A stretch of 64,000 nt of DNA from Alphaproteobacteria bacterium. GTDB lineage: Bacteria; Pseudomonadota; Alphaproteobacteria; SMXQ01. The stretch is from positions 1-64,000 of the forward strand of contig WHSO01000011.1 of NCBI GenBank assembly GCA_009380075.1. The letters are read 5' to 3'. Position numbers and translations under genes: made by a program. The notes under the pieces are model-generated. The model did no database searches. It saw only the letters and a list, made by a program, of their open reading frames with translations, and was not told the DNA's origin. This document shows positions 32,524 to 64,000 of this stretch, in pieces; the first letter of the stretch is position 1; every line of letters starts with the position of its first letter.

Positions 32524-32530
32524 GCCGTTT

Positions 32531-34255
32531 TCAGTTGCGGATGCCGACCCGCAGGCCGAGCGCACGGGCGAGCAGCGCGATCCCCGTCGAGAGAATAATG
32601 ACGATGAAGGAGGTCACGGCCGCCGTCTCGTAGCGGCCTTCCACCATGTAGTCGAGCTGCAGCAGCGCCAGGGTCTTGGTCTCCGCCGTCGCCACCAGGG
32701 CGACCGAAGCGATGTCACGGGCGGCCGAGATGAAATTCATGACGCCGACCAGGAGCAGCACCGGCATCAGGATCGGCAGCACCACCCGGGTGAAGGTCCG
32801 CCACCAGGTCGCCCCGGTCACGCGCGAGGCTTCCTCCAGCTCGTGGCCGAGCTGCATCATGTTGGACTTGATGATCTGGGTGCCCAGCGTCATCGAGCTG
32901 ATGACGGTGGCCAGGATCAGCAGCCACATGGTCCCGTAGAGCGGGCGGAACAGCGGCGATTCGAGGAACACGAACAGCAATCCGACGCCGAACAGGATGC
33001 CCGGCACCGCGAACGGCAGCCAGGAGACGAAGTCCAGCAGGGCACGCGCCCGGAAGGTGGTGCGGACGGTGAAATAGGCGACCAGCGAGAACAGCACCAC
33101 CGAGAAGATCCCGGCGCCCCCCGCCATCGCCAGCGTGTTGCCGACGGCCTGCAGGAAGGTCTCGTCGTTCAGCAGGGCGACCCAGTGATCGAGGGTATAG
33201 GGGTCGGGAATGTTGAAGAAGCCGAACAGATTCATGGTCGAGGCGAGGCCGACGAACACCAGGGGCAGGATGGTCAGCACCAGGACGACCGTGAGCACGC
33301 CGAGGAAGACCGGAGTCCGCCATGGGCCGAGGCGCACCGGCTGGGTCTGCAGCTTGCCGGTCAGCGTCGTGTACTGGCGGCGCATGGCGAGCCAGCGCTG
33401 GGCGAAGATCAGCGGCAGGATGGCGGCGAGGCCGAGGGTGGCGAGAGCCGAGGCGGGGCCGAACTCCGGCGGCTCCTGCGCGATCAGGGCATAGACCTTG
33501 GTCGAATAGACGTAGAACTGGAACGGCGGGCCCAGCACCATCTCGATCTCGAAGGATTGCATGGCGCGGATCATCGCCATCAGCAGGATCGCGATCAGCG
33601 CCGGCATCATCGCCGGCACGACGATGCGTGCCAGCGTGCCGAGGCGGCCGGCCCCGGCGACGCGCGACGCCTCCTCCAGCGACGAATCGATGTTGCGGAA
33701 CGTCGGCGTCAGCAGCATTACTTTGACGGCGATGGAATTGGCGCCGATATGAGCCCAGACGATCCCCCAGAAGGAATAGATGTTGAACGGTGCCTCCTCC
33801 ACGAACGGCAGCAGCATCACCAGCTTGTTGAGCAGGCCGTATTCGGGGTCGAGGCACATGATCCAGCCCAGCGTCACCGACAGCGACGGCAGGAAGAACG
33901 AGATCCAGAACATGAACTCGAGCCCGTTGCGCCACGGGATGTCGGTCCGCGCCAGCACCCACGACACGATCACCGCGACGGGAAAGGAAATGACGTTGAT
34001 CGCCACCAGCAGCTTGATGGTGTTGACGATGGTGCCGAACATCGCCGGCTCGCTCAGCGCCCGCTTCCAGGCGTCGAGCCCGAAGACGAAATCGGCCCCC
34101 GTCTCGGCGACCGAGAAGCTGTAGAAGACGATCAGCAGGACCGGGTAGAGGACGAGGAACAGCGTCACCAGCAGCACCACCGCGAACAGCACGGTGCGGA
34201 ACTCGAACATCCGGCGCACGCGCCCGCCGAGCGGTGGCAGGGCTATCTCGGCCAT
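32531..34255 (-). CDS. ABC transporter permease, two fused transmembrane domains, copy 1 (iron-type)
   Basis: The 574-residue protein contains two tandem binding-protein-dependent permease domains, as in Fe3+-type (FbpB/SfuB) importers. Each has about six transmembrane segments. The coupling EAA loops are seen as EEASRVAGAGRLGTLARIVVPAMMPA near residue 208 and EEASRVTGATWWRTFTRVVLP near residue 480. The cytoplasmic loops should dock on the ATPase. The gene overlaps the ATPase gene upstream by 13 bases and precedes the Pht5-like gene. ATG at 34255 was taken because the longer frame is an unlikely Arg/Pro-rich extension. The imported substrate may be a carboxylate or an iron complex. Confidence 0.93.
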   Translation of the reverse strand: MAEIALPPLGGRVRRMFEFRTVLFAVVLLVTLFLVLYPVLLIVFYSFSVAETGADFVFGLDAWKRALSEPAMFGTIVNTIKLLVAINVISFPVAVIVSWVLARTDIPWRNGLEFMFWISFFLPSLSVTLGWIMCLDPEYGLLNKLVMLLPFVEEAPFNIYSFWGIVWAHIGANSIAVKVMLLTPTFRNIDSSLEEASRVAGAGRLGTLARIVVPAMMPALIAILLMAMIRAMQSFEIEMVLGPPFQFYVYSTKVYALIAQEPPEFGPASALATLGLAAILPLIFAQRWLAMRRQYTTLTGKLQTQPVRLGPWRTPVFLGVLTVVLVLTILPLVFVGLASTMNLFGFFNIPDPYTLDHWVALLNDETFLQAVGNTLAMAGGAGIFSVVLFSLVAYFTVRTTFRARALLDFVSWLPFAVPGILFGVGLLFVFLESPLFRPLYGTMWLLILATVISSMTLGTQIIKSNMMQLGHELEEASRVTGATWWRTFTRVVLPILMPVLLLVGVMNFISAARDIASVALVATAETKTLALLQLDYMVEGRYETAAVTSFIVIILSTGIALLARALGLRVGIRN

Positions 34256-38175: not shown

Positions 38176-39087
38176 ATGGCCAGGATCGTCGGCTGCATGG
38201 CCATGTCCCACGGGCCGCAACTACTGACACCGTCGGACAAGTGGCCGGAACTCCCGGCCCGTGCCAAGGGGCCCTTCAATCCGAAGCCCGGCATCGCCGG
38301 CTAAATCACCCTCGACGCCATGCGCGCCCACCAGGACCGCTGCAACGACGCGATCGCGAAGCTGCGCGACCAGCTCCAGGCGTGGAAGCCTGACACCATC
38401 GTCATCGTCGGCGACGACCAGCACGAGAACCTTCTCGACGACAACATCCCGCCCTTCACCCTGTTCATCGGGGACGAGGTCGACGCGACCCGCAAATATC
38501 GCTACTTCGGCACCGACATCGCAAGCCAGGCGATCCACTACAAGTCGAATGGCGCCCTCGCGCGCGAGATGCTGGAGGGCCTGATGGATGCGGGCTTCGA
38601 TCCGGCCTGGTCGAGGAAGACGCGCATGGAAGGCGGGCTCGGCCACGCCTTCGGGCGGGTGCTGGAATTCGTGCTGCCCCAGGCCGACGTGCCCATCGTC
38701 GCCATCATGGTGAATACCTACTATCCGCCGGCCCCCACGGCGGCGCGTTGTGTCGCGTTCGGCAAGGTGATCGGTGCCGTCGCGCGCCGTTCCGCCAATG
38801 CCGGGCGCGTCGTGTTCATCGGCTCGGGCGGGCTCAGCCACACCAGGATCGACGAAAAGCTCGACGCCGATTTCATCGCCGCGCTGGAATCGAACGACCT
38901 CGACTTCATGGCGTCGCTGCCGAACGATATCCTGGTCGCGGGCACGTCGGAGATCCGCAACTGGATGATTGCCGCGGCGGCGGCCGGGTCGGGCGGGCGA
39001 ATGGTGGATTACGTCCCCTGCTACCGCAATCCCGACGGGGTCGGCTGCGCCATGGGCTTCGCGTTCTGGGAGAAGACGGCGGCCTGA
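38176..39087 (+). pseudogene. LigB-family class III extradiol ring-cleavage dioxygenase, interrupted by an in-frame TAA
   Basis: Reading from ATG at 38176 (GGAGGAAGAG just before it), the frame begins MARIVGCMAMSHGPQLL, the usual N-terminus of LigB-type dioxygenases with the first iron-ligand His (about 12). It ends at TAA at 38302-38304 (codon 43). The same frame then continues without a gap as ITLDAMRAHQDRCNDAIAK to the stop at 39087. A second His is near residue 83 (DDQHEN) and a GSGGLSH motif near residue 222. Without the TAA the protein would be about 303 residues, the family length. Either a nonsense mutation, a sequencing error or stop readthrough is involved. These enzymes cleave protocatechuate, gallate or similar rings. 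Confidence 0.85.
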
Positions 39088-41864: not shown

Positions 41865-42974
41865 GTGACCGCCGGCGACGCGTCGCCTTTTCTCGGGCTG
41901 GCGCATATCTCCAAGCTGTTCGGCTCGTTCCGTGCCGTCGACGACCTCAGCCTCGGTATCGTCGAGGGCGAGGTCTATGCCCTGCTCGGGCCTTCGGGCT
42001 GCGGCAAGTCGACGACGTTGCGCCAGATCGCCGGTCTCGACTCCCCCGATACCGGCACCATCACGCTCCGCGGCAACGTGCTTTTTTCCGCGGCCGACGA
42101 CGTCTTCGTGCCGCCACAGAAGCGCAACATGGGAATGGTGTTCCAGTCCTACGCCATCTGGCCGCACCTGACGGTGGGGGAGACGGTGGCCTACCCGCTT
42201 CGGCTGCGGCGCGTCGCCGGTGCCGAGGTCGAACGTGCCGTGCACGGCATCCTCGCCCAGGTCGGCCTCGACGGTTTTGCCGACCGGCCCTCGACCACGC
42301 TGTCCGGCGGCCAGCAGCAACGTGTCGCGCTGGCCCGGGCGCTGGTCTACAAACCGGACGTTCTCCTGCTCGATGAACCCTTCAGCAATCTCGACGTCAA
42401 GTTGCGCGAACAGATGCGCGTCGAGCTCAAGCTGCTGCAGCGCCAGGTCGGCGTGACCGTGATCCTAGTCACCCACGACCAGTCGGAGGCGCTGTCGCTG
42501 GCCGACCGCGTCGCGGTCATGAACGCGGGCCGCATCGAGCAGGTGGGCGATCCGGTGGAGCTCTACGAAAATCCTGTGAGCCCCTTCGTGCGCGATTTCA
42601 TCGGGCTATCCACGTGCTTTGACGTGACCGTCAGCGCGCAGCGCGGGGACGAGGCCGAAGTGCGATTTGACGGCGGCGACACCTCCTTCGTCTCCGGCGC
42701 CTTTCGCGGGGTGACGCCGGTTCCGGGTGCGAAGCTTGTCGCCGCCATACGCCCCGAAAGCATCGAGATCGTGCGCGGCTCCGGTGCTGTGGGCGCCAAC
42801 CGCCTTGCCGGCACTGTCGAAACGCTCCTCTTCATCGGCGACCGGTTCGAATGTCACGTACGGGCGGGTGGGCTCCGCTTCCTCGTCTATGTGCCGCGGA
42901 GCGATCGCCTGCGCGAAGGCGACGCCGTGACGCTTCATGTTCCGAAGGATGCGCTTTCGCTATGGCCGAAGTAG
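41865..42974 (+). CDS. ABC transporter ATP-binding protein, copy 2 (iron/polyamine type)
   Basis: The 369-residue ATPase has Walker A GPSGCGKSTTLRQ near residue 46, FQSYAIWPHLT (Q-loop), signature LSGGQQQRVALARAL near residue 146, and Walker B VLLLDEPFSNLDVKL. A C-terminal TOBE-like region follows. It is very similar in layout to the ATPase at 34243. The start is GTG with GGGGGGAGG upstream. The gene overlaps the fused permease by 13 bases and begins the eleven-gene plus-strand cluster. The natural binding-protein partner is likely the Tat-exported protein at 39165. Confidence 0.93.
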   Translation: MTAGDASPFLGLAHISKLFGSFRAVDDLSLGIVEGEVYALLGPSGCGKSTTLRQIAGLDSPDTGTITLRGNVLFSAADDVFVPPQKRNMGMVFQSYAIWPHLTVGETVAYPLRLRRVAGAEVERAVHGILAQVGLDGFADRPSTTLSGGQQQRVALARALVYKPDVLLLDEPFSNLDVKLREQMRVELKLLQRQVGVTVILVTHDQSEALSLADRVAVMNAGRIEQVGDPVELYENPVSPFVRDFIGLSTCFDVTVSAQRGDEAEVRFDGGDTSFVSGAFRGVTPVPGAKLVAAIRPESIEIVRGSGAVGANRLAGTVETLLFIGDRFECHVRAGGLRFLVYVPRSDRLREGDAVTLHVPKDALSLWPK

Positions 42975-44695
42975 CCTCGCCCGGCGCCGCCGCGCGGTCG
43001 CCGTTCCGCCGGTTGCGGCCGGGGACGCTCGGCGCCTCGGTGGTGCTGCTGGTCATGCTGGTGCTGGTCGCCTATCCGCTGGTGCTCCTGGTGGAAGCGA
43101 GCTTCCTCGTCGAGGGCGCCGGCGGCGCCAAGGCCTATGGGTTCGAGCTGTGGCGCACGGCGTGGGATGCCCCCGGACTCGTGCCCTCCATCGTCAACAC
43201 CTTCTACCGCGTGGTGGTGACCGAGGTCATCGCCTTTCCCGCCGCGATCCTGATCGCCTGGGCGGTGGCGAGGACCGACCTTCCGGGCAAGAAGCTGATC
43301 GACGCCTTTTTCTGGATCGCCTTCTTCCTGCCGGCTCTGCCGGTGCTGATGGGATGGATACTGTTGTTCGACCCGCAGTACGGGCTCGCCAACCAGGCCT
43401 GGGCCTATCTGTTCGGCGTGGAAAAGGGGCCGTTCGACATCTACACCTTCTCCGGCATCATTTTCGCCCATATCGCCGCGCGGTCGGTCGCGGCGAAATA
43501 CATCTTCCTGTCGCCAGCCTTCCGTAACCTCGACGGGGCGATGGAGGAAGCGTCCCGCATCGCCGGGGCGAGCCCGCTGCGCACCTTGTTGCGCATCGTC
43601 ATTCCGGTGTTGATGCCGGCGTTCCTCATCACGCTGTGCATTTCGCTGATCCACTCGCTCGAATCCTTCGAGATCGAGCTGGTGCTCGGCCCGCCCACCA
43701 ATTTCTACGTCTTCTCCACAAAGATCTACCAGTTCATCCAGGAAGATCCGCCGATGTTCGGCGTCGCGACGGTGCTTGGGCTCGCCATCCTGGCCAGCAT
43801 GCTGCCGTTGATCTTCTGGCAGCAGTACCTGTCACATCAAAGAAGCTACGTCACGGTGACCAGCCATTTTTCGCTCAACATCCTGCGCCTGCGCGGCTGG
43901 CGCTGGCCGACCTTCGCCACCATCGCCGCCTTCGGCACGCTGATCACCGTGGTACCAGTGGTGTTCCTGGTCATGGGCACGTTCATGAGCCTCTACGGCC
44001 ACTTCGGCCTCGCCGAGGCATGGACGCTCGATCACTGGGAGACGGTGCTCGCCGACCCGCCCATGCTGCGCGCGACCGGCAACACCCTGATCATGGGCGG
44101 CGCGGCGGCGCTGTTCGGCGTGTTCTGGTATTCGCTGGTGGCCTATATCTCGGTGCGCACCCGCTTCGCGGCGCGCGGCGTCCTCGACTTCCTGTCGTGG
44201 CTGCCGGCGAGCCTGCCGGGAATCATCCTCGGCCTCGCGCTGCTGTGGGTGTTCCTCAATGTCGAGCTGTTCCAGCCGCTTTACGGGACCATCGTCGTGC
44301 TGGTGGTGGCGTGCATCCTCAACAGCATTTCGACCGGCGTGCAGCTCGTCAAAAGCAACATGGTGCAGCTCGGCCGCGACCTCGAGGAAGCGTCCTTCAT
44401 CACCGGCGGATCGTGGGCCTATACGTTTCGGCGTATCGTGCTGCCGCTGCTCGGCCCGGTGCTGATCGCCGTCGGCCTGTTGACCTTTGTTTCCGCGGCG
44501 CGCAACGTATCGACCATCGCCATGCTGGTGGCGTCCGACAACCGGCCCCTCGCCATGCTGCAGGTCGACCATATCGTCGACGGCACGTTCGAGGCGGGGG
44601 CGGTCGTGGGCGTCCTCATCGTGCTGCTGACCCTCGGCATCGCCGTCATCGCCCGGATGATCGGGCGGCGCTTCGGATTTTCGGGACTGAGATAG
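42962..44695 (+). CDS. ABC transporter permease, two fused transmembrane domains, copy 2
   Basis: The 577-residue protein has two tandem permease domains like the one at 32531, with similar EAA loops (MEEASRIAGASPLRTLLRIVIPVL near residue 196; EEASFITGGSWAYTFRRIVLPLL near residue 475). About 12 transmembrane segments are expected. The ATG at 42962 lies within the end of the ATPase gene, giving a 13-base overlap, which is shared with the first system and supports common ancestry. The amidohydrolase gene follows 35 bases downstream, linking transport to catabolism in this operon. Confidence 0.94.
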   Translation: MAEVASPGAAARSPFRRLRPGTLGASVVLLVMLVLVAYPLVLLVEASFLVEGAGGAKAYGFELWRTAWDAPGLVPSIVNTFYRVVVTEVIAFPAAILIAWAVARTDLPGKKLIDAFFWIAFFLPALPVLMGWILLFDPQYGLANQAWAYLFGVEKGPFDIYTFSGIIFAHIAARSVAAKYIFLSPAFRNLDGAMEEASRIAGASPLRTLLRIVIPVLMPAFLITLCISLIHSLESFEIELVLGPPTNFYVFSTKIYQFIQEDPPMFGVATVLGLAILASMLPLIFWQQYLSHQRSYVTVTSHFSLNILRLRGWRWPTFATIAAFGTLITVVPVVFLVMGTFMSLYGHFGLAEAWTLDHWETVLADPPMLRATGNTLIMGGAAALFGVFWYSLVAYISVRTRFAARGVLDFLSWLPASLPGIILGLALLWVFLNVELFQPLYGTIVVLVVACILNSISTGVQLVKSNMVQLGRDLEEASFITGGSWAYTFRRIVLPLLGPVLIAVGLLTFVSAARNVSTIAMLVASDNRPLAMLQVDHIVDGTFEAGAVVGVLIVLLTLGIAVIARMIGRRFGFSGLR

Positions 44696-44730: not shown

Positions 44731-45714
44731 ATGATCATCGACGCCCATACTCACTACCACGCCCACGGCATCCTCAATGCCGTGTTCAACCACCTCTACG
44801 GGCATAACTACGCACCCATCCGTCCCGCCCACGGCGACGAGGAACTGCACCTCAAGCTGATGGACGAACGCGGCTACGACATGCAGATCATCTCCCAGCC
44901 GCCGTTCACCCAGGTCCACGACCAGAAGGCCTACCTCGGCATCGCCCAGGCCAGGGCCTTCAACACCTCGATGGCGAAATGCGTCGAGGAGCATCCCGGC
45001 AAGTTCCGCGCCGTCGCGTCGCTGCCGCTCCAGGACATTCCCGCGTCGGTGAAGGAGATGAACCGCGCGATCAAGGAACTCGGCATGATCGGCTGCATGC
45101 TCAACGTCGACATCTCCCGCCGCGGCACGGCGCCGACCAACGACGAGGAATACTGGTTCCCCATTTACGAGGAAGCCTGCAAGCTGAACGTCCCGCTGTT
45201 CGTCCATCCGGGCTCGTCCGGCCTGCCGCGCCACCAGAAGTATTCGCTGGCGCTGCACCTCGGCTTCATCTTCGGCGAGACCGAATTCCTGACCACCTTC
45301 ATCTACGGCGACGTGTTCAAGCGCTTCCCCGATCTCAAGATCCTGTGCTCGCACGGCGGCGGCGCGATCCCCTATCAGGTCGGGCGCTTCCAGGCCTCGA
45401 CCTGCCCCGACCTCAAGGGCGAACGCGGCCCCCGCATCCCGATCGACGGTACCTTCCTCGACAACCTGCGCAAGATGCACTTCGACACCTGCATGTATTC
45501 GCCCGAAGGCATCGAATGCCTGATCAAGGTCGTCGGCGTCGATCAGGTCCTGTTCGGCACCGAATGCCCGGGCATGGGCATGGCGCGTCGCCCCGACGGC
45601 CGGTCCTATGATAACGTGGAAGACTATATCAACGGCTTCGGCTGGCTGAGCGAGGCCGAGAAGGCCAAGATATTCTCCGGCAACGCCATCAAGCTGTTCA
45701 AGATCAAGGTCTGA
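44731..45714 (+). CDS. Amidohydrolase-superfamily protein, LigJ/ACMSD-like
   Basis: The 327-residue protein is an amidohydrolase of the ACMSD/LigJ branch (decarboxylases such as gamma-resorcylate decarboxylase, and the hydratase LigJ acting on 4-oxalomesaconate). The metal motif DAHTHYHAHG is at the N-terminus, His in FVHPGSS near residue 162, His in CSHGGG near residue 206, and the final acidic position is Glu in FGTECPGMGMA rather than the more usual Asp. The Glu and PGMG context resemble LigJ-type hydratases. GGGGAG precedes the ATG. Three LigK/RraA-family genes follow, which matches the hydratase-aldolase order of the protocatechuate 4,5-cleavage and gallate pathways. Confidence 0.8.
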   Translation: MIIDAHTHYHAHGILNAVFNHLYGHNYAPIRPAHGDEELHLKLMDERGYDMQIISQPPFTQVHDQKAYLGIAQARAFNTSMAKCVEEHPGKFRAVASLPLQDIPASVKEMNRAIKELGMIGCMLNVDISRRGTAPTNDEEYWFPIYEEACKLNVPLFVHPGSSGLPRHQKYSLALHLGFIFGETEFLTTFIYGDVFKRFPDLKILCSHGGGAIPYQVGRFQASTCPDLKGERGPRIPIDGTFLDNLRKMHFDTCMYSPEGIECLIKVVGVDQVLFGTECPGMGMARRPDGRSYDNVEDYINGFGWLSEAEKAKIFSGNAIKLFKIKV

Positions 45715-45734: not shown

Positions 45735-46403
45735 ATGGCACGCGACGCGTTGGTGGATCGCCTTTCGAAGCTCGACGCCTGCACGGTTTCCGATGCGCTC
45801 GATGCATTGGGCATCAAGGGCGCGACGCTGGGCATCCGGCCGCAGTGGCTGTGCCCGCGTATCGCGGGCCGTGCGGTGACCCTGAAGCTGAAGCCGCAGG
45901 GGACGGAAAAGCCCACCCGCCACCTCGGCACCGAGGCGATCGAGGCCGCCGATCCCGGCGACGTACTGGTCATGGAACTGGCCGGGCGCACCGACGTCCC
46001 GGGCTGGGGCGGGCTCCTGTCGCTCGCGGCGGCGACCAAGGGGATCGCCGGTATCGTCATCGACGGGGCCTGCCGCGACATCGACGATTCGGCCGCCGCC
46101 GGGTTCCCGGTCTACGCCCGCGCCGTGGTGCCGATCACCGCCCGCGGGCGCGTCATCCAGGACAGCGTCAACGCGGAGATCCAGTTCGCCGGCGTCCAGG
46201 TCCACCCCGGCGACTACGTCGTCGCCGACGGTTCCGGTACCATCATCATCCCCCAGGCGCGCGCCGAAGAGGCGATCGCAAAGGGCGAGGAAATCGGCGC
46301 CCGCGAGGCGCGCATGGCCGAGGCGGTGCGCAAGGGCGCGTCCATCGTCACGGTGATGGAACAGGGCGGCTACGAACAGATGCTCAACAAGGACAAGAAG
46401 TAG
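45735..46403 (+). CDS. RraA/LigK-family aldolase-like protein, copy 1
   Basis: The 222-residue protein belongs to the RraA-like family, which includes the class II pyruvate aldolases HMG/CHA aldolase (LigK/ProA) and the RNase E inhibitor RraA. GWGGLLSLAAATKGIAGIVIDGACRDIDD at residues 94-122 contains the G...DGxxRD catalytic motif of the aldolases. AGGAGG precedes the ATG. It follows the LigJ-like gene by 20 bases and precedes two more members of the family. It probably cleaves a hydroxy-oxo-acid to oxo acids. An RNase regulator is unlikely in this setting. Confidence 0.85.
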   Translation: MARDALVDRLSKLDACTVSDALDALGIKGATLGIRPQWLCPRIAGRAVTLKLKPQGTEKPTRHLGTEAIEAADPGDVLVMELAGRTDVPGWGGLLSLAAATKGIAGIVIDGACRDIDDSAAAGFPVYARAVVPITARGRVIQDSVNAEIQFAGVQVHPGDYVVADGSGTIIIPQARAEEAIAKGEEIGAREARMAEAVRKGASIVTVMEQGGYEQMLNKDKK

Positions 46404-46411
46404 GACAGTTC

Positions 46412-47059
46412 ATGGACGCGATCATCGAAGGTTTCAAGAAACTCGCCAGTGCGTCGATCTCCGACGCGCTCGACCGTCTCGGCATCCACGGCATGGCCCT
46501 GGGCATCGGCCCGCTCGCCAACGGCCATCACGTGGTCGGCCGCGCCTTCACGCTCAAGTACCGCCCCTGCGGCCTCGTCAAGGGGACCGTCGGCGACTAC
46601 ATCGACGACGTGCCACCGGGCGGCGTGGTGGTGCTGGATAACGCCGGTCGCCTCGACTGCACCGTGTGGGGCGATATCCTGACCACCACGGCGAAGCAAC
46701 GCGGCGTCGCCGGCACCGTCATCCACGGCGTCTGCCGCGATGTTGCGGGGTCGCTGGAAGTGGGCTACCCGATCTTCTCGCGCGGGCGCTTCATGCGCAC
46801 CGGCAAGGACCGGGTCGAGGTCGACGGCACCAACGTCACCGTCTCGCTCGGCGACGTGCAGGTCCGGCCGGGCGATATCGTGGTCGGCACCGATGACGGC
46901 GTTCTCGTCGTGCCGGTGGAGAAGGAAAAGGACGTCCTCGACATCGCCTCTGCCGTCGCCGAAGCCGAGGCGCGCATCGTCGCTGACGTGAAGGCGGGCG
47001 TGAAGCTGGCCGCCGCCCGCAAGAAACACGGCTATCACAGTCTCCAGACCAAGAGGTAG
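46412..47059 (+). CDS. RraA/LigK-family aldolase-like protein, copy 2
   Basis: The 215-residue paralog contains GDILTTTAKQRGVAGTVIHGVCRDVAG, where the usual D of VIDG is His but the RD pair remains. The rest of the domain (ASISDALDRLGIHGMALGIG) aligns well with copy 1. AGGA precedes the ATG, 8 bases after the previous stop. Whether it is an active aldolase, a subunit of a hetero-oligomer or a regulator cannot be told. The tandem of three suggests a shared complex or different substrates. Confidence 0.85.
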   Translation: MDAIIEGFKKLASASISDALDRLGIHGMALGIGPLANGHHVVGRAFTLKYRPCGLVKGTVGDYIDDVPPGGVVVLDNAGRLDCTVWGDILTTTAKQRGVAGTVIHGVCRDVAGSLEVGYPIFSRGRFMRTGKDRVEVDGTNVTVSLGDVQVRPGDIVVGTDDGVLVVPVEKEKDVLDIASAVAEAEARIVADVKAGVKLAAARKKHGYHSLQTKR

Positions 47060-47066
47060 GAACCCC

Positions 47067-47714
47067 ATGAATCTCAATTTTCCCCGGCCCGACGCCGCCC
47101 TGCTGGCGCGCGCGGCCAAGCTCCCGTCCGCCACCATCCACGAGGCCATGGGCCGTAAGGGCGCGCTTCCCGCCGCCATCAAGCCGGTTTCGTCGCGCTG
47201 GAAGATCTGCGGCCCGGCGCTGACCGTGAAGGCGAAGCCCTTCAACAACATCAACATCCATCGCGCCATCTACCTGGCGAAACCCGGTGACGTCCTCGTC
47301 GTCGACGTCGGCGGCGGCTACGAGGCGGGCTACTTCGGCGAGATCATGGCCCATGCGTGCAAGGTGCGCGGGCTCGGCGGCCTCGTCATCGACGGCTGCG
47401 TGCGCGACGCGGACCTGCTGGAAGAGATCGGGTTTCCCGTTTTTGCCCGCGGCCTCGCCATACAGGGCACGACCAAGGACGAAGGCGGCGCGATCGCCGA
47501 AGCTCTCACCATCGGCAACGTCACCGTCGTGCCCGGCGACGTCATCAACGGCGACCGCGACGGTGTGGTGGTGGTGGCCAAGGCCAATCTCGCCGCGGCG
47601 CTCGACGCCTCGGAAGCGCGTGAGGACAAGGAAGCCGGGACGATCGCGGCGCTCAAATCGGGCAAGTCCACGATCGAGCTCTACGGCTGGGCGCCGCTGC
47701 CCAAGGGCCAATAG
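47067..47714 (+). CDS. RraA/LigK-family aldolase-like protein, copy 3 (4-carboxy-4-hydroxy-2-oxoadipate aldolase-like)
   Basis: The 215-residue protein is the most LigK/ProA-like of the three. GYFGEIMAHACKVRGLGGLVIDGCVRDADLLEEIGFPVFARG has the complete VIDGxxRD active-site motif and the following substrate loop (GTTKDEGGAI). Such enzymes cleave 4-carboxy-4-hydroxy-2-oxoadipate into pyruvate and oxaloacetate after LigJ. AGGA precedes the ATG, 7 bases after copy 2. It is followed after 2 bases by the class II aldolase gene. Confidence 0.87.
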   Translation: MNLNFPRPDAALLARAAKLPSATIHEAMGRKGALPAAIKPVSSRWKICGPALTVKAKPFNNINIHRAIYLAKPGDVLVVDVGGGYEAGYFGEIMAHACKVRGLGGLVIDGCVRDADLLEEIGFPVFARGLAIQGTTKDEGGAIAEALTIGNVTVVPGDVINGDRDGVVVVAKANLAAALDASEAREDKEAGTIAALKSGKSTIELYGWAPLPKGQ

Positions 47715-47716
47715 CG

Positions 47717-48490
47717 ATGAGCGATCTGTCGGGCGAACGCGAACTCGTCGCCAGGGCGTGCCGCATGATCGGCAACCTCGGCGTGACCAAGGCCGCGACC
47801 GGGCATATCAGCCGGCGGGTGGACGGCGGCTTCCTGGTGCGCGCCCGCGGGCCGGACGAGGTCGGCGTGCGCTACACGACGGCGGACGAAGTCATCAAGG
47901 TGGACGCCGACGGCAGGAAGCTCGACGGGCCCGAAGGGCTCAAGGCGCCGCAGGAGGTGTTCATCCATTCCTGGCTGTACAAGTCGCGGCCCGACGTGAA
48001 CAGCGTCGTGCACGTCCACCCCGCCACGGTGGTGTTATTCACCATCACGGAAAAACAGATTTTACCGGTGATCGGTGCCTACGACCCGACCGGACTGCGT
48101 CTCGCCATCGAGGGACCAGCGCTCTATGATCGCGCCATCCTCATTAAGGATGATGCGCTCGGCAAGGAATTCGCCGGAGTCATGGGGCGGGCGCGGATCT
48201 GTCTCATGCGTGGTCACGGCATCACCACGGTGGGACCCACGGTGGAGGAAGCCACGCTCGCGGCGATCAAGATCAACGAACTGGCGGAAATGAACTATCA
48301 GGCCTATCATTTGGGCACTCCCCGGCCGATCTCCGACGACGATATCCGGACCTTCGTGCCCGGGTACAAGTTGGACGGTCAGGGCAAGAAGGCGTCGGAC
48401 GGTCCCATGGCGCCGCTGACAGGGAACATCCGTTCCTCGTGGCGCTACTACGCGACGCTGGCGGGTGAAAAGGATTCCGCCGACGGGTAA
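47717..48490 (+). CDS. Class II aldolase/adducin-family protein, copy 2
   Basis: The 257-residue protein is a class II aldolase-fold enzyme. Metal His are in SVVHVHPATVV near residue 98 and RGHGITTVG near residue 160. It starts 2 bases after the stop of the RraA copy 3 gene, so translation is probably coupled. It precedes the Rieske gene by 12 bases. Together with the aldolases at 29497 and 58336, it shows that each oxygenase-containing cluster here carries one such gene. The reaction (retro-aldol or decarboxylation) is not deducible. Confidence 0.9.
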   Translation: MSDLSGERELVARACRMIGNLGVTKAATGHISRRVDGGFLVRARGPDEVGVRYTTADEVIKVDADGRKLDGPEGLKAPQEVFIHSWLYKSRPDVNSVVHVHPATVVLFTITEKQILPVIGAYDPTGLRLAIEGPALYDRAILIKDDALGKEFAGVMGRARICLMRGHGITTVGPTVEEATLAAIKINELAEMNYQAYHLGTPRPISDDDIRTFVPGYKLDGQGKKASDGPMAPLTGNIRSSWRYYATLAGEKDSADG

Positions 48491-48502: not shown

Positions 48503-49678
48503 ATGCTGTCCCATGAGGTGAACGAGTCGATGACGCGCGTCGGGCGCGGCACGCCGGCGGGCGAGCTCCTGCGCCGCTACTGGCAGCCGGTCGCGGCCGA
48601 GGCGGAACTGGCCGACGACAACCCCAAGCTGCGCATCCGCGCGCTGGGCGAGGACCTGGTCCTGTTCCGCGACGGCTCCGGCCGCCTCGGCCTGGTCGAG
48701 GAACAGTGCTGTCATCGTTCGGCGTCGCTCTTCTACGGCTTCGTCGAGGACGACGGAATCCGCTGCCCGTACCATGGCTGGAAATACGATTGCACGGGTG
48801 CGTGCATCGAGCAGCCGTTCGAGCCGAAGGACTCGACCCTCAAGGATCGCGTGAAGCAGCGCGCCTATCCGGTCGAGACGCTGGGTGGCATGGTCTGGGC
48901 CTACATGGGACCGGCGCCGGCGCCGCTTTTGCCGCGCTGGGGGCAGCTCCTGCGCGAGGATGGCGTGCGCGGCATCTACGTGCAGCCGGTGCTCGAGTGC
49001 AACTGGCTCCAGGTCATGGAGAACTCCGTCGACCCCTGCCACACCTATTACCTGCATGCCCATACGCTGATGCTTAAGGGCAAAGGTAATTATGGCGCCT
49101 ACTACTATCGCCCGATCGAGAAGATGCATTTCGAGATTGTCGAGGAACCGAACTGGGTCGGCGTGCGCAAGCAGCGCATCTACGGTGGCGACAAGGCCGA
49201 GGAAGAAGAGGGCCATCCGGTGATCTTCCCGAATTACCTGCTGTCGCCCCAGCGCGAGCACATCGTCATGCACATGCGTCTGCCGGTGGATGACACCCAC
49301 ACCAAGGTCTTCCGTTACCAGTTCACGCCCACGGTTGATGGCAGCCGTGTGGAGCAACCCGTTCCGGTGCCGGTCGCCTATATGCCGCCGATCAAGGACG
49401 CGGACGGTGCCTATCACATGGACAACTTCGCCTCCCACGACGGTATGGCGTGGGAGACCCAGGGCCCGATCACCGACCGCGCGCGCGAGAACCTCGGCAC
49501 CACGGACGCCGGCATCGCGCTCTACCGGCGCCTGCTGCGCGACCAGATCAAGCGCGTACAAGACGGCAAGGACCCGCTCGGCCTCATCCGCGATCCGCAG
49601 TTGAACGAATACATCGACATCCCGGTCTCCACCGGCCAGGCGCGCGTCGCGCGTGAAGGCGGAAGCGTCAGTGCATGA
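48503..49678 (+). CDS. Rieske non-heme iron oxygenase alpha subunit, copy 3
   Basis: The 391-residue protein, shorter than copies 1 and 2, has the Rieske ligands in EQCCHRSASLFYGFVEDDGIRC followed by PYHGW near residues 68-94; the first motif is C-C-H rather than C-P-H. The catalytic iron motif is ENSVDPCHTYYLH near residue 173. It is likely an aromatic-acid hydroxylase or demethylase. GGAGG lies 6-10 bases before ATG 48503; a TTG four codons upstream is an alternative. Its stop overlaps the start of the first bicupin (ATGA), so the oxygenase and the bicupin are translationally coupled. Confidence 0.92.
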   Translation: MLSHEVNESMTRVGRGTPAGELLRRYWQPVAAEAELADDNPKLRIRALGEDLVLFRDGSGRLGLVEEQCCHRSASLFYGFVEDDGIRCPYHGWKYDCTGACIEQPFEPKDSTLKDRVKQRAYPVETLGGMVWAYMGPAPAPLLPRWGQLLREDGVRGIYVQPVLECNWLQVMENSVDPCHTYYLHAHTLMLKGKGNYGAYYYRPIEKMHFEIVEEPNWVGVRKQRIYGGDKAEEEEGHPVIFPNYLLSPQREHIVMHMRLPVDDTHTKVFRYQFTPTVDGSRVEQPVPVPVAYMPPIKDADGAYHMDNFASHDGMAWETQGPITDRARENLGTTDAGIALYRRLLRDQIKRVQDGKDPLGLIRDPQLNEYIDIPVSTGQARVAREGGSVSA

Positions 49679-50787
49679 GTAAAGCGTCTCGTCCGGCGGC
49701 GCCGAACGATCCGGAAGCACAGGTCTTCAAGCGCCCGCCCCAGTACTACAATGTCTGGCAGCGGGGCGAGGGCATTCCCGTCCACGAGACCTTCCACGTC
49801 GAGAGCCTGCAGGACGTGGGGGTCGGGCCGTGGAAGCGGTTCGGCGCCAACGGCTGCTTCATCAACCTGACCGACAGTTTCCTGGTCGGTGCCTTCGTGC
49901 TGGAAATCCCGCCGGGCAAGACGCTCAATCCCATGCACCACCTGTTCGAAGGCACGACCTACGTCGTCGCCGGCGCGGGGGAAACGGTGATCGAGCAGAA
50001 GGGCAGCCCGACGCGCAAGGTCACCTGGGCGGAACGGTCGCTGTTCGCGCCCCCGCTCAACACCACCTACCAGCACCGCAACACCGATTCCGACCGGCCG
50101 GCGCGGCTCCTCGTCGTCAACAACGCGCCCCTGGTGCTGAGCCTCTATCACGACGACGACTTTGTCTTCGGTTCCGACTACATGTTCAGGTGTCGCTACG
50201 AGGGCGAGGACAACTATTTCGACGGCATCCCCGAATACCTCGGCAGCCGCCTGTCGCGGGTCAACTACATCCGCGACGTCGGCACCTACGAGCTCTACAA
50301 CTGGGAAATGCGCGGCAAGGGCGCCAAGACCGCGTTCATGTCGCTGTCGTCGGGCACGCTGGCCGCGCATATTTCGTCGTTCGAGGTGGGGACCTACAAG
50401 AAGGCGCACCGGCACGGGGCCGGCGCCCATGTGGTGATGCTGGATGGCGAGGGCTATTCGCTGCTGTGGAAGGAAGGCGACCGCCCGACCCGCGTCAACT
50501 GGCGCGCCGGCACGATGTTCGCGCCGCCCGAATGGTGGTACCACCAGCATTTCAACACCGGCAAGGAGCCGGCGCGTTACCTCGCCATCCGCAACAACAA
50601 TCCGGAGCATCCGCTCCGCTTGGGCATGCCGCGCATCCGCGACAGCGGCGAGGGCATGACCCAGTTCGGCAAGGCCCAGATCGACTTCAGTGAGGAGGAT
50701 CCCGCCATCTTTGCCGAATACGCGGCCGAACTCACCGCCAAGGGGGTCGAACTGCGCCAGGCGAGGCCCGTCTACCGCTCGGCCTGA
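49675..50787 (+). CDS. Bicupin, copy 1 (gentisate-dioxygenase-like)
   Basis: The 370-residue protein has two cupin domains. Domain 1: PGKTLNPMHHLFEGTTYVVAGAGE, and PPLNTTYQHRNTD. Domain 2: YKKAHRHGAGAHVVMLDGEG near residues 240-259, then PPEWWYHQHFNTG. The second site has HRH like gentisate 1,2-dioxygenase; the first lacks the first His of the HxH motif. These features suggest one Fe(II) site in domain 2 and ring-cleaving activity, unproven. The start overlaps the Rieske stop (ATGA). Two close paralogs follow at 50960 and 52111, and a part of a fourth lies at 63533. Confidence 0.88.
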   Translation: MSKASRPAAPNDPEAQVFKRPPQYYNVWQRGEGIPVHETFHVESLQDVGVGPWKRFGANGCFINLTDSFLVGAFVLEIPPGKTLNPMHHLFEGTTYVVAGAGETVIEQKGSPTRKVTWAERSLFAPPLNTTYQHRNTDSDRPARLLVVNNAPLVLSLYHDDDFVFGSDYMFRCRYEGEDNYFDGIPEYLGSRLSRVNYIRDVGTYELYNWEMRGKGAKTAFMSLSSGTLAAHISSFEVGTYKKAHRHGAGAHVVMLDGEGYSLLWKEGDRPTRVNWRAGTMFAPPEWWYHQHFNTGKEPARYLAIRNNNPEHPLRLGMPRIRDSGEGMTQFGKAQIDFSEEDPAIFAEYAAELTAKGVELRQARPVYRSA

Positions 50788-50959
50788 CGCGGGGGGATTC
50801 GCCTTTCCGGAAAGGAAATGTTGCCTAAAATGGCGGTAATCACCGCCGGTTCCGCCTGTTAGCCTGCGGCGGACAACGAGCAAGACAAGGCGCCCCGGGA
50901 AGGGAAGCGCAGGACAGGTATGCCGGGGGCCACGCGGCATCCGGGGAGGGAACATCATC

Positions 50960-52093
50960 ATGGCAATTGTCGATAATTTCAACGCGTCCCAGGGCGGGCC
51001 GGAGACGCAGAAATTCAAGCGGCCGAAGCCGTTCTACGAACTGTGGCAGGCCAAGCAGGGCATTCCGTCCTACACCACCTTCCACGTGCAGGACCTCGCC
51101 GCGGTCGAGCTCGCGCACTGGGACCTGCTCGGCGTCGACGGCTGCTTCATGAACCTCGAGGACCCCTTCCTCATTTCCTCCATGATCATCGAGCTCAAGC
51201 CCGGCCAGAAGACCAAGCCGCTGAAGCACATGTTCGAGACCTGGATCTTCGTCATCAAGGGCAAGGGCGAAACCCTGATCCGGCAGGACGGCGTCAAGGA
51301 TTCGGTCATTCCGTGGCAGTCGCGCTCGCTGTTCGGGCCGCCGTTGAACACCACCTACCAGCACCGCAATACCGACAGCACCGAAACCGCCCGCATCCTG
51401 ATGGTGACCAATGCGCCGTTGACGATGAACCTCTATCACAACGAACGCTACGTGTTCGACAACCCGTTCGTGTTCGAGGACCGCTATTCGGGCCAGCAGG
51501 GCTACTTCAACCCGACCTACGAAATCATCGCCCAGCGTTACGTGCGCACCAATATGATCACGGATGTGCGCGATTATTACCTGCACGAATGGAAGGAGCG
51601 CGGCATCGGCGCGCGCACGGTGTTCCTCACCGGCATGAGTCACCACACCGTCGGTGCCCATGTCTCGGAGTTCGAGCCGGGTACCTACAAGAAGGCGCAT
51701 CGGCACGGGCCGGGCGCGCATGTGATCATTCTGGAAGGCGAAGGCTATTCGCTGAACTGGAAGGAAGGCGACAAGCCGACGCGGGTGGACTGGCACGAGA
51801 ACTCCATGTTTTCGCCGCCGGACATGTGGTACCACCAGCATTTCAACACGGGAAAGGGACCGGCACGCTACCTCGCGCTCAAGAGCAAGGGCGCGCCGGA
51901 ACACCTCTGCCGCATCGGCGCGCCGGGACCCAACTCCGATCCCGATTTCGCCCAGAAGCACCAGATCGAGCACGAGGACGAGGATCCCGCGATTTACGAC
52001 GAATTTGCGGCCGAACTGAGGAAAACCGGCGCGGAACTGCGCCAGCCGCGGCCCGAGTACGGAAATCGTCACGCAGCCCCCGGCAGGCCGTAA
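50960..52093 (+). CDS. Bicupin, copy 2
   Basis: The 377-residue paralog has the same two-domain plan: PGQKTKPLKHMFETWIFVIKGKGE and PPLNTTYQHRNTD in domain 1, and YKKAHRHGPGAHVIILEGEG and PPDMWYHQHFNTG in domain 2. Domain 1 again reads K-H rather than H-x-H, so only domain 2 has the full His set. A 172-base gap separates it from copy 1, with no hairpin seen and possible read-through. GGGGAGGGAAC precedes the ATG. The three copies keep identical spacing of the main motifs, which points to tandem duplication with later divergence. Confidence 0.88.
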   Translation: MAIVDNFNASQGGPETQKFKRPKPFYELWQAKQGIPSYTTFHVQDLAAVELAHWDLLGVDGCFMNLEDPFLISSMIIELKPGQKTKPLKHMFETWIFVIKGKGETLIRQDGVKDSVIPWQSRSLFGPPLNTTYQHRNTDSTETARILMVTNAPLTMNLYHNERYVFDNPFVFEDRYSGQQGYFNPTYEIIAQRYVRTNMITDVRDYYLHEWKERGIGARTVFLTGMSHHTVGAHVSEFEPGTYKKAHRHGPGAHVIILEGEGYSLNWKEGDKPTRVDWHENSMFSPPDMWYHQHFNTGKGPARYLALKSKGAPEHLCRIGAPGPNSDPDFAQKHQIEHEDEDPAIYDEFAAELRKTGAELRQPRPEYGNRHAAPGRP

Positions 52094-52110
52094 CCCGATG
52101 GAGGAATGCC

Positions 52111-53193
52111 TTGAATGACACACTGAATACTGTAGCTGTGGAAAAGAAATTCGTCCGGCCCAAGCCGTTTTTCGAACTGTGGCAGAAGGGCGAAGGCATT
52201 CCCGTCTACGATCTCTTCTATGTCGAGGACATGATGAAGGTCGAACTCGGTCACTGGGATCGTTTCGGCTGCAACGGGGCCTTCGTCAACCTCGCCGATC
52301 CGTTCCTCACGTCGGCCGTCATCATCGAGATCGCGCCGGGCGGGAAGACCAAGCCGGTACGCCACATGTTCGAAACCTGGTGCTTCATCGTCGAGGGCGA
52401 AGGCGAGACGATCATCGAACAGGACGGCAGCCCGACGAATACGGTTTCCTGGGGCAAGCGTGCGCTGTTCGGACCTCCGTTGAACACGACCTACCAGCAC
52501 GTCAATCTCGACAGGAAGCGGCCGGCCCGAATCCTCATGGTGACCAACGCGCCGTTGACCATGAACCTCTACCACAACGAGCGGTACGTTTTCGAAAACA
52601 AGTTCATCTTCGACGACCGCTACAAGGGTGAGAACAGCTTTTTCAACGGTGAGACCGAATACCTCGGCGGACGCGTCACCCGGATCAACCTGATCCCTGA
52701 TACGCTTCAGTTCCGCCTCATCAACTGGAAGGATCGCGGTTTCGGCGCCAAGTCGTTCCACATGTCGATGTCGGGACACACCATGGCGTGCCACCTGTCG
52801 GAATTCGAGGTCGGTACCTACAAGAAGTGCCATCGCCACGGGCCCGGCGCCCACGTCATCATCCTGGCAGGGCAGGGCTATTCGCTGCTGTGGAAGGAAG
52901 GCGATCCGCCGACCCGCGTCGACTGGAAGGAAAACTCGCTGTTCGCGCCGCCGGAGTGGTGGTTCCACCAGCACTTCAATACCGGACCGGAGCCGGCGCG
53001 CTATCTGGCCCTGCGCCGTGGCGGCAGCCCGGAGCATCCGATCCGCCTCGGCATGTCGGCGGAGGGCGGCGGGCCCGACCAGATCGAGTACGAGCAGGAA
53101 GATCCCGGCATCTATGATACCTATGCCGCCCAACTGAAGAAGAACGGAGTCGAAATCCGGCAGCCGCGTCCGACTTACGTCGGGAAAGACTGA
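52111..53193 (+). CDS. Bicupin, copy 3
   Basis: The 360-residue paralog has PGGKTKPVRHMFETWCFIVEGEGE and PPLNTTYQHVNLD in domain 1, then YKKCHRHGPGAHVIILAGQG and PPEWWFHQHFNTG in domain 2. The start is taken as TTG at 52111 with GGAGGA about 10 bases upstream, 18 bases after the stop of copy 2. The upstream frame is only the antisense continuation of the copy 2 region. It is the last gene of the plus-strand cluster and converges on the pirin gene. Enzyme or binding role is not known. Confidence 0.85.
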   Translation: MNDTLNTVAVEKKFVRPKPFFELWQKGEGIPVYDLFYVEDMMKVELGHWDRFGCNGAFVNLADPFLTSAVIIEIAPGGKTKPVRHMFETWCFIVEGEGETIIEQDGSPTNTVSWGKRALFGPPLNTTYQHVNLDRKRPARILMVTNAPLTMNLYHNERYVFENKFIFDDRYKGENSFFNGETEYLGGRVTRINLIPDTLQFRLINWKDRGFGAKSFHMSMSGHTMACHLSEFEVGTYKKCHRHGPGAHVIILAGQGYSLLWKEGDPPTRVDWKENSLFAPPEWWFHQHFNTGPEPARYLALRRGGSPEHPIRLGMSAEGGGPDQIEYEQEDPGIYDTYAAQLKKNGVEIRQPRPTYVGKD

Positions 53194-62137: not shown

Positions 62138-63451
62138 TCACTTGCGGCAGGCGAGTGTAGAGGCCTCCGAATCGTCGCCTTCGTAGGTCACGGCGCAGGT
62201 CATGCCAGTCTTGATGTCGTCGCGTTTGGCCGGATTGCCGTCGATGGTTATCCTGGTCCGCCGCGAATGGACCCGCACCGTCGCGTCCTTCCCGCCATCC
62301 TTGATGACGATTCGGTTGCCCTTCTTGTTGCGCGACACCACGGCGGAGGTGATGGTGGTGAGCTTCACCACCTTCTGTTCCGCTTCCTTGCCTTGGGGCG
62401 TCATGTAGACATTGACGCGGTCGATCAGGGTCTTGGGGGCGTTCACGATCTCGGTGATGATGGCCTGGACGTCCTCGCCCGGCTGGTAGCCGATTTCGGC
62501 GCGCTGCTCGCCGGCCGCCTTGCGGAACGCGGGGTCCTTCATCGTGTCGCCGCAGGCCTTGCGCAGCGCAGCGACGCGCTCCGCCGGGACCCCGGGCGTC
62601 GCCGCGATCGGCCGGCCGACGACATTGGCCAGGGTCAGGAAGCGGGCGACCTGTTCGCGCTCCTTGTCGCCCTTCACCAGATCGATCAGCAGCGGCACAT
62701 CGGGCAGTTCGGGATCGCGCTTGAGGCCGAGCTGCATCAGGAAATTGAGCTTCTTGTCCCTGATCCACTCGGGATTGGTCGACTTCCAGCTCGCGAGGTT
62801 GTTGGTGGCGCGGCCCTCGACCTCGCCGCGCTCCATCGCCAGGTTGACGTCGCCGCCGCCCTTGTAGCCGAAGATCACCTTGAGCCTGGCGTCGAGCAGC
62901 CGGTTGTAGGCCACGGGGATCTGTACCGATATGGAGCCCGCACCCGTGGCGCCGATGAGGGTGACGCGCTTCTTCGCGTCCTCGATCGTCCTGGTCGGCG
63001 ATGTGTGGAAGGTGACGAGCAGCGGGTTCGAATCGCTGAGGTCGCAGATCCAGTGGAACTTGCGCACGTCGCCCTTGAACTTGTCGCCGCCGGTGACCTG
63101 GTACATGGGCAGGCCGCGGCTGACGATGGTGAGCACCGTGCCGTCCTTGGGCGCGACATTGGCGACGTAGTTCGCCGCCTGCAGCCCGCCGCCGCCCGGC
63201 ATGTTGACCGGGATCATCTTCCCGGGCGGTCCCGGAATGTGCCTGACGATATGGACCGCGAGAAGGCGGGCGTAGGTGTCGTAGCCGCCCCCCGGGGCGG
63301 AGCGGATGATCATCTTCATCTGCTTGCCCTTGTAGAAATCGGCGACCGCATCGGCCTGCGCCGCGTCCGGCGCAGCGCTCATGCCTGCGACGATACCGGC
63401 GCCGGCGATGACGATGGTGCCCAGTATTCCCCGTGTGACGTTTCGTGCCAT
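62138..63451 (-). CDS. Bug/TctC-family solute-binding protein with shared C-terminal domain
   Basis: The 437-residue protein has a signal peptide (ARNVTRGILGTIVIAGAGIVAG) and the Bug core (RSAPGGGYDTYARLLAVHI, IPVNMPGGGGLQAANY). After the normal Bug body, residues about 362-437 form the same extra domain as in the protein at 23833. It has HSRRTRITIDGNPAKRDDIK, GMTC and LACRK, with the two Cys 16 residues apart. ATG at 63451 follows GGAGG; an earlier ATG at 63463 is rejected. The FAD monooxygenase gene follows, pairing uptake with oxidation. No TctA/TctB is adjacent. Confidence 0.9.
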   Translation of the reverse strand: MARNVTRGILGTIVIAGAGIVAGMSAAPDAAQADAVADFYKGKQMKMIIRSAPGGGYDTYARLLAVHIVRHIPGPPGKMIPVNMPGGGGLQAANYVANVAPKDGTVLTIVSRGLPMYQVTGGDKFKGDVRKFHWICDLSDSNPLLVTFHTSPTRTIEDAKKRVTLIGATGAGSISVQIPVAYNRLLDARLKVIFGYKGGGDVNLAMERGEVEGRATNNLASWKSTNPEWIRDKKLNFLMQLGLKRDPELPDVPLLIDLVKGDKEREQVARFLTLANVVGRPIAATPGVPAERVAALRKACGDTMKDPAFRKAAGEQRAEIGYQPGEDVQAIITEIVNAPKTLIDRVNVYMTPQGKEAEQKVVKLTTITSAVVSRNKKGNRIVIKDGGKDATVRVHSRRTRITIDGNPAKRDDIKTGMTCAVTYEGDDSEASTLACRK

Positions 63452-63532
63452 GACAGCCTCCATCCCCCGTTGTTCTTGTCATGTAATCATCGCGCCGCGA
63501 AGGGCCGACCGTCAAAGTGCTTTCCGCTACCG

Positions 63533-64000
63533 TCAGAACGTGGCGCCGCCCCAGGCCTTGGTCTTCTCGTTGTTGGGGTCGTAGAGCTCCGGCTCCATCC
63601 GCGTCCTGGCGTCGTTGCGCTCCAGCGTCGCCTCGTACTCCTGGCGGATGAAGGGGTCTTCCATGTCGTAGGGGATGGCGTTGCCGCCGGCGCGCATGTC
63701 GATGGCGCCGGCGTCGATCTGCTTGGCGCCGGGCAGGCCCGGCTTGCGCCCGCGCGCATTGTTGGGTCCCATCCAGGCGCTGAGGCGGAGCGGTTCCTTG
63801 CTGACGCCGAAGTGCTGGTGGAACCAGTCGCCGCTCATCGGCGCGGCGGAGATCATGCCGACCGGCTCGTAATCGACGCGCTTCACGTATTCCGCCTTGC
63901 CGTCCTTCCACGGCGTCGGCCCGATGTCCTTGGGCCAGGTGTAGGAATAGCCCTTGCCCTTGACGCAGACCAGCACCGCCGCCGAGCCGTGATAATGGGC
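63533..64000 (-). CDS. Bicupin, copy 4, C-terminal part (5' end outside window)
   Basis: The frame is open to the right edge. The visible 155 residues begin AHYHGSAAVLVCVKGKGYSY and include MSGDWFHQHFGVSKEP, which match domain 2 of the bicupins at 49675-53193. The C-terminus has an extra region (NNARGRKPGLPGAKQIDAG ... YDPNNEKTKAWGGATF). It is the first visible gene of the minus-strand operon with Bug protein and FAD monooxygenase, so each oxygenase-rich cluster here has bicupin genes. The N-terminal domain and start are outside the window. Confidence 0.85.
   Translation of the reverse strand, partial: AHYHGSAAVLVCVKGKGYSYTWPKDIGPTPWKDGKAEYVKRVDYEPVGMISAAPMSGDWFHQHFGVSKEPLRLSAWMGPNNARGRKPGLPGAKQIDAGAIDMRAGGNAIPYDMEDPFIRQEYEATLERNDARTRMEPELYDPNNEKTKAWGGATF

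Follow-up and report, generated by a model that had tools for sequence, protein, structure and literature searches.

Tandem bicupin genes and their predicted metal site

A 64,000-nucleotide stretch of DNA from an uncultivated alphaproteobacterium (SMXQ01 lineage; contig WHSO01000011.1 of assembly GCA_009380075.1, positions 1 to 64,000), here called the window, encodes three consecutive proteins of two cupin domains each (the bicupins BIC1, BIC2 and BIC3) following a Rieske oxygenase, and part of a fourth bicupin at its edge. The ATG of BIC1 overlaps the TGA of the Rieske gene by 4 nt, BIC1 and BIC2 are separated by 172 nt and BIC2 and BIC3 by 17 nt, and these open reading frames (ORFs) bear out the coupling of three tandem bicupins to a Rieske oxygenase that a sequence-only reading of this DNA had described. 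The genes and their key motifs are as follows.

48503..49678, + strand: Rieske oxygenase (Rieske2) with a C-terminal LigXa_C-type match; orthologs (66-77%) lie directly 5' of BIC1 in the related genomes G001, G004 and G005
49675..50787, + strand: bicupin copy 1 (BIC1), 370 aa, Pfam Cupin_2 match of 42.9 bits; orthologs (72-81%) in G001, G004 and G005
50319..50580, + strand: core of BIC1 domain 2 (HRHG...HQHFN), predicted 3-His metal site, limits approximate
50960..52093, + strand: bicupin copy 2 (BIC2), 377 aa, with an AlphaFold2 model
51698..51706, + strand: BIC2 H247-R-H249, predicted metal ligands 1 and 2, position computed from residue numbers
51833..51841, + strand: BIC2 H292-Q-H294, predicted ligand 3 and second-shell His, position computed from residue numbers
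52111..53193, + strand: bicupin copy 3 (BIC3), starting at TTG 52111 or GTG 52138
63533..64000, - strand: bicupin copy 4, C-terminal 155 aa, cut by the window edge; a member of another subfamily, outside the operon

BIC2 and BIC3 match Cupin_2 with 40.2 and 38.0 bits and, like BIC1, lie above the cut-off of 27.2, while the Pfam scan gave no hit for the 155-aa fragment of copy 4. The fourth copy stands at the window edge as the sequence-only reading had it, and is whole in the contig (L021:3534-4766), where it reaches to about contig base 64765. It is adjoined by a TctC-like protein of 441 aa (62138-63463, - strand) which has a C-terminal extension beyond the 274-position TctC profile.

The AlphaFold2 model of BIC2 is a confident bicupin (pLDDT 90.9; domain 2 alone pLDDT 84), and domains 1 and 2 are internal duplicates of each other (hhalign 99.7%, E 1e-25, 101 columns). 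In domain 1 the motifs of BIC1, BIC2 and BIC3 are PMHHLFEG, PLKHMFET and PVRHMFET, so that Met, Leu or Val replaces the first His of the HxH motif, and other canonical ligands are missing as well (Gly or Thr for Glu, Tyr for the His of motif 2), which leaves one of the four. Domain 2 of all three copies retains both of its His motifs and reads AHRHG...WYHQHFN or WFHQHFN; the motifs had thus been read correctly from the sequence in copies 1-3. In an alignment of 107 family members, from which all ligand counts given here are taken, the first domain-1 His is absent from 106 relatives and present in just one, and its loss is therefore a trait of the whole family, which rules out a recent lesion as its origin. 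Unlike copies 1-3, the full-length form of copy 4 has Glu-His-Glu-His at the canonical ligand positions of domain 1, and a possible alternative set of four domain-1 ligands is kept in 27 relatives including copy 4.

The ligands of domain 2 are conserved throughout the family: H247, H292 and H294 are found in all 107 members and H249 in 105. The position usually taken by Glu is Ala in 83 of the 107, the full pattern H/H/A/H/H occurs in 81, and most of the others have His-His with different non-Glu residues. Y243, K245, W278 and R303 are also near-invariant. Domain 2 would accordingly be classed by its residues with the functional type of the 3-His cupin dioxygenases, which is marked by HxH...H, no Glu ligand and a second-shell His. 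The single-site architecture put forward by the sequence-only reading is upheld in that copies 1-3 are predicted to carry a metal site in domain 2 only, and their N-terminal cupin has lost its site and probably plays a structural role.

BIC1, BIC2 and BIC3 form three supported orthologous groups across the genera of the host's family, with identities of 70-88% within groups and 50-61% between them. All three are under purifying selection, the dN/dS values against a sister species being 0.21, 0.14 and 0.08, respectively. The orthologous groups are older than the genera, which rules out a recent local triplication, and copies 1-3 are old members of the family that are not interchangeable. The retention of divergent tandem copies suggests that they serve separate substrates or contribute to a mixed oligomer.

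Operon context and distribution of the family

The locus is an aromatic-acid catabolic operon in which, from the permease to BIC1, the genes are separated by gaps of at most 35 nt (permease - amidohydrolase - RraA1 - RraA2 - RraA3 - class II aldolase - Rieske - BIC1). The genes upstream of the Rieske oxygenase are as follows.

38320..39087, + strand: LigB-family extradiol dioxygenase; in sister genera (G005 and G004) its homologs are directly linked to the bicupin operon
41865..42974, + strand: ABC ATPase
42962..44695, + strand: ABC permease, opening the tight run, with 35 nt between it and the amidohydrolase; 87% in G001, where it lies 5' of RraA1
44731..45714, + strand: amidohydrolase-2; nearest solved relatives LigY (meta-cleavage product hydrolase) and LigJ
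45735..46403, + strand: RraA-like aldolase 1
46412..47059, + strand: RraA-like aldolase 2; nearest 3k4i and, more distantly, 4-carboxy-4-hydroxy-2-oxoadipate aldolase
47067..47714, + strand: RraA-like aldolase 3
47717..48490, + strand: class II aldolase family, near the 3,4-dihydroxyphthalate decarboxylase PhtC (187.7 bits, just below the cut-off of 200)

The Rieske protein, besides its LigXa_C match, resembles oxygenases of the phthalate 4,5-dioxygenase type. Without the bicupins, the predicted products of the operon supply uptake, oxygenation, decarboxylation, extradiol cleavage, hydrolysis and aldol cleavage, with the amidohydrolase presumably acting on the product of LigB. The combination of a Rieske protein with LigXa_C, a LigB-type dioxygenase and a LigY-like hydrolase in one operon is shared with the LigX-LigZ-LigY module for the degradation of biphenyl (DDVA); no bicupin is known to take part in that pathway. 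In G005 the genes are collinear on one strand in the order LigB - RraA1 - RraA2 - RraA3 - Rieske - BIC1 - BIC2 - BIC3, and in G004 the order is LigB - amidohydrolase - aldolase II - (one gene) - Rieske - BIC1 - BIC2. In G001 a solute-binding protein gene separates BIC2 from BIC3, and in G005 one lies in each of the two gaps between the bicupins. Such solute-binding-like ORFs amid the tandem bicupins of related genomes (L124, 9708-11227 and 12324-13805; L123, 11039-12548) have no counterpart there in the window.

The host genome, a metagenome-assembled genome (MAG) of 3.54 Mb and 97% completeness, encodes 22 family members at E<=1e-38 and, because of this number and the ligand conservation over 107 members, the observation is not a product of chance. 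All 11 genomes of the host's GTDB family encode between 6 and 27 copies, while a search with copy 2 at E<=1e-20 gave no match in 50 single genomes that represent other families in the class. Members are nevertheless present on some Sinorhizobium and Phyllobacterium plasmids and in one other alphaproteobacterial MAG, and at least 570 stretches of public genomes encode relatives, the hosts being deltaproteobacterial and Binatia MAGs, Chloroflexota (SAR202 among them), Tectomicrobia, Actinobacteria and Marinobacter. Cultured relatives are Streptomyces sp. AcH 505 and S. odonnellii, with a tandem pair next to GDO and FAH genes, and Marinobacter algicola DG893. High copy numbers are reached in a SAR202 genome (14 in 1.7 Mb), a Dehalococcoidia genome (26 in 2.8 Mb) and a genome of 8.3 Mb (33 copies). 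Tandem runs hold 69 of the 153 listed genes of the host's family and include 13 arrays of three or four; three-gene arrays are common there, and arrays of four bicupins are found in the sister genomes G010 (C240) and G008 (C22). The expansion proposed by the sequence-only reading is thus strong, with the exception of copy 4, whose placement in a distant clade rules it out as a product of the expansion that gave rise to copies 1-3. The family, widely expanded and with a conserved operon context, is apparently uncharacterised; a literature search of incomplete coverage returned no characterised member and no paper describing it.

Across the family, the commonest neighbours are solute-binding proteins, and EutA-like proteins, UbiD, amidohydrolase-2 and Rieske genes are further neighbours, in counts that include about nine genes like that of gentisate 1,2-dioxygenase (GDO) scored as bicupins. 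In the host genome, 5 UbiD genes lie no further than 5 kb from a family member where 0.62 would be expected (P 3e-4), an enrichment that is weaker for Rieske-domain genes (4 against 1.04 expected, P 0.02). One of these four is a short match of Rieske type, and its open frame matches a glyoxalase-type family too. Near another bicupin, a glyoxalase/FosA-type ORF (L022:5385-6245) overlaps a weak Rieske match (32 bits), which may be a fusion or a neighbour in another frame. The number of amidohydrolase-2 genes within 5 kb (3 against 1.24 expected) is not significant, and the SDR control gave none and thus no enrichment.

Relation to gentisate dioxygenase and other cupins

Among solved structures, the C-terminal cupin of the gentisate dioxygenase 3bu7 is closest in sequence, with E values of 2e-9 for the family profile and 4e-10 for domain 2, and the search of PDB sequences returned this one GDO domain and distant cupins as its sole matches. 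Both domains of the family are most similar to the C-terminal cupin of GDO, and a full-length alignment between the family and GDO does not form, as one domain alone aligns. Against the GDO profile of NCBIfam (TIGR02272), copies 1 and 2 score 13.3 and 13.6 bits and copy 3 not at all, far from the cut-off of 442. The best NCBIfam match is MabB (5-aminosalicylate 1,2-dioxygenase, NF049978), to the C-terminal domain, with 27.8 bits against a cut-off of 650. Pfam and NCBIfam thus yield nothing beyond generic cupin matches. The host genome encodes GDO-like proteins as well, as separate genes, and the tree places these outside the family with full support. In GDO and salicylate dioxygenase (SDO), the iron is held in the N-terminal cupin (PMC4019311) by His119, His121 and His160, assisted by Gln108, Arg127, His162 and Asp174/175. 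The family shares with these enzymes (3bu7, 2d40, 2phd) the bicupin architecture, a 3-His site with Ala for Glu, a second-shell His after the third ligand and a setting in aromatic catabolism, but has its predicted site in the C-terminal cupin.

With no full-length alignment, a separate clade and second-shell residues that mostly differ, the family is therefore regarded as an independent bicupin with its site in the other domain and a centre resembling that of the 3-His dioxygenases. By descent it is not a gentisate dioxygenase, and it arose when a cupin similar to that enzyme's C-terminal domain was duplicated independently. The label 'gentisate-dioxygenase-like' given by the sequence-only reading is consequently not retained, and an annotation of the family as gentisate dioxygenase would mislead.

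In comparisons of fold, the BIC2 model matches all known bicupins, GDO and SDO included, at TM-scores of about 0.45-0.5 and there is therefore no close solved relative. The oxalate decarboxylase OxdC and MncA, which are among the top matches to the whole model (TM about 0.49), are bicupins with 3-His-1-Glu sites in both cupins, whereas domain 2 of the family has no Glu ligand and domain 1 of copies 1-3 has lost its site. Homogentisate 1,2-dioxygenase is also a bicupin and has its active site in the C-terminal cupin, but it uses 2-His-1-carboxylate rather than 3-His and is absent from the sequence matches.

Proposed function and alternatives

The function that is tentatively favoured for the bicupins is that of an Fe(II)- and O2-dependent enzyme with its active site at the three His of the C-terminal cupin. 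This view draws on the ligands and the second-shell His, on the solved sequence closest to the family and on the aerobic hosts; the confident bicupin model, the conserved operon, the purifying selection on the three orthologous groups and the UbiD and Rieske genes enriched near family members in the host genome also count in its favour. A heme-copper oxidase is encoded in 15 of the 16 host genomes tested, with which the use of O2 is therefore consistent, and the exclusion of O2 dependence by anaerobic hosts is ruled out. The best guess at the chemistry is that the family comprises mononuclear metal enzymes which cleave a C-C bond of carboxylated aromatics or of ring-fission products. It is proposed that each copy would bind one Fe(II) at the C-terminal site, that this site would chelate either a hydroxyaromatic bearing a carboxyl group or a ring-fission product in its enol form, and that O2 would then be used for the cleavage of the C-C bond; the three copies may act on different intermediates or assemble into one mixed oligomer.

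Several observations weigh against this proposal. When residues are matched to GDO/SDO by counting ungapped from the HxH and HxH motifs, His294 of domain 2 corresponds to His162, but Ser236, Val255 and Ala306 stand at the positions of Gln108, Arg127 and Asp174/175. Fold searches with the whole model and with domain 2 are undiscriminating and return oxalate decarboxylase, vicilins, TM1459, phosphoglucose isomerase, DddK and auxin-binding protein, so that oxidases, isomerases, lyases and storage proteins are matched alike. A separate ring-cleaving dioxygenase is often nearby, namely LigB in the relatives of the operon and a GDO-like gene in ten related loci, and ring cleavage therefore need not be the task of the family. 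Two Streptomyces genomes have the order FAD monooxygenase - GDO-like - FAH family - solute-binding protein - two family members, with an unrelated minus-strand gene inserted after the FAD monooxygenase in one of them. The host genome itself has four LigB and three intradiol matches, and six GDO-like proteins in the loci read, figures that speak neither for nor against a scarcity of conventional ring-cleaving enzymes there and that leave VOC-type extradiol enzymes aside. Where it accompanies ring-cleaving dioxygenases, the family may not itself be the ring cleaver, and the bicupins look like single-metal enzymes that stand beside the usual ring-opening enzymes and do not replace them.

The main alternative, possible if somewhat unlikely, is that the bicupins are non-oxidative hydratases, isomerases or tautomerases which would act on the product of a LigB/LigY-type step and feed the RraA aldolases. 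The operon combines a Rieske oxygenase, an extradiol dioxygenase, a LigY/LigJ-like hydrolase and aldolases, and no dienoate hydratase is recognised in it, and family members stand with GDO and LigB genes and not in their place. In the breakdown of riboflavin, the cupin LumY hydrates a dienedioate in the step that links a pyrone hydrolase to a retro-aldolase (PMC12746152), and the two pathways share a similar order, both involving a Rieske protein, an extradiol dioxygenase, a hydrolase and an aldolase. LumY is, however, a monocupin of 16 kDa, most family members are found in clusters without RraA or LigB, and amidohydrolases of the LigJ type can be hydratases themselves.

That the family is an expansion of plain gentisate/salicylate-type ring-cleaving dioxygenases, as the sequence-only reading had it, is improbable. 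The same style of 3-His motif with a second-shell His, the similarity of domain 2 to 3bu7 and the Rieske, UbiD and amidohydrolase genes among the neighbours would fit such enzymes, but end-to-end homology is lacking to the GDO-like proteins that the same genome and clusters encode as separate genes, the site is in the other domain, TIGR02272 and MabB are far below cut-off and the catalytic second shell is not conserved. Least probable is a role as non-enzymes, either metal- or ligand-binding helpers of uptake or partner subunits of Rieske or decarboxylase enzymes, to which the solute-binding protein genes that are the commonest neighbours and lie between bicupins in G001 and G005, as well as the mixed assemblies suggested by tandem arrays of unlike copies, would lend themselves, but these genomes abound in solute-binding genes and the conserved 3-His-plus-His site of domain 2 looks catalytic.

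Expanded monooxygenases, ring-hydroxylating dioxygenases and enolases have so far been credited with enabling uncultivated bacteria to degrade refractory, carboxyl-rich organic matter, in a paper with no mention of cupins in its main text (PMC6946804). The hosts with dozens of copies include many uncultivated bacteria of soil, groundwater and ocean, and the bicupins would be an overlooked candidate of comparable size relative to the genome, as in the SAR202 and Dehalococcoidia genomes above. A wider proposal, which is rather doubtful, is that they make up a new class of C-terminal-site 3-His bicupin oxygenases, held in 14-33 copies by uncultivated degraders (SAR202, other Chloroflexota, Binatia, deltaproteobacterial MAGs and this alphaproteobacterial family), which would cleave C-C bonds of carboxyl-rich aromatics or ring-fission compounds and often form arrays of unlike paralogs, possibly as mixed oligomers. 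The role of copies 1-3 is directly testable by expression, because they belong to a defined operon with orthologs in several genera.

Other proteins recur beside the bicupins. The protein most often found directly next to them is EutA-like (ethanolamine ammonia-lyase reactivating factor family), in 14 of 113 runs, among them a run on a Phyllobacterium plasmid (L028, L033, L049, L057, L058, L079, L103, L108, L119, L120 and L122:11208-12713). Heme-oxygenase-like proteins (PF14518, just below cut-off) adjoin some of the arrays (L026:7808-8548, L028:13976-14758, L055 and L113) and could be diiron enzymes. Three paralogous proteins of about 330 aa are encoded in the window (8687-9685, 11529-12524 and 31549-32565, all on the - strand) and also beside a bicupin triplet in L028; they have no NCBIfam match at 1e-5, the second has no Pfam match either, and they are possibly decarboxylase- or binding-protein-like.

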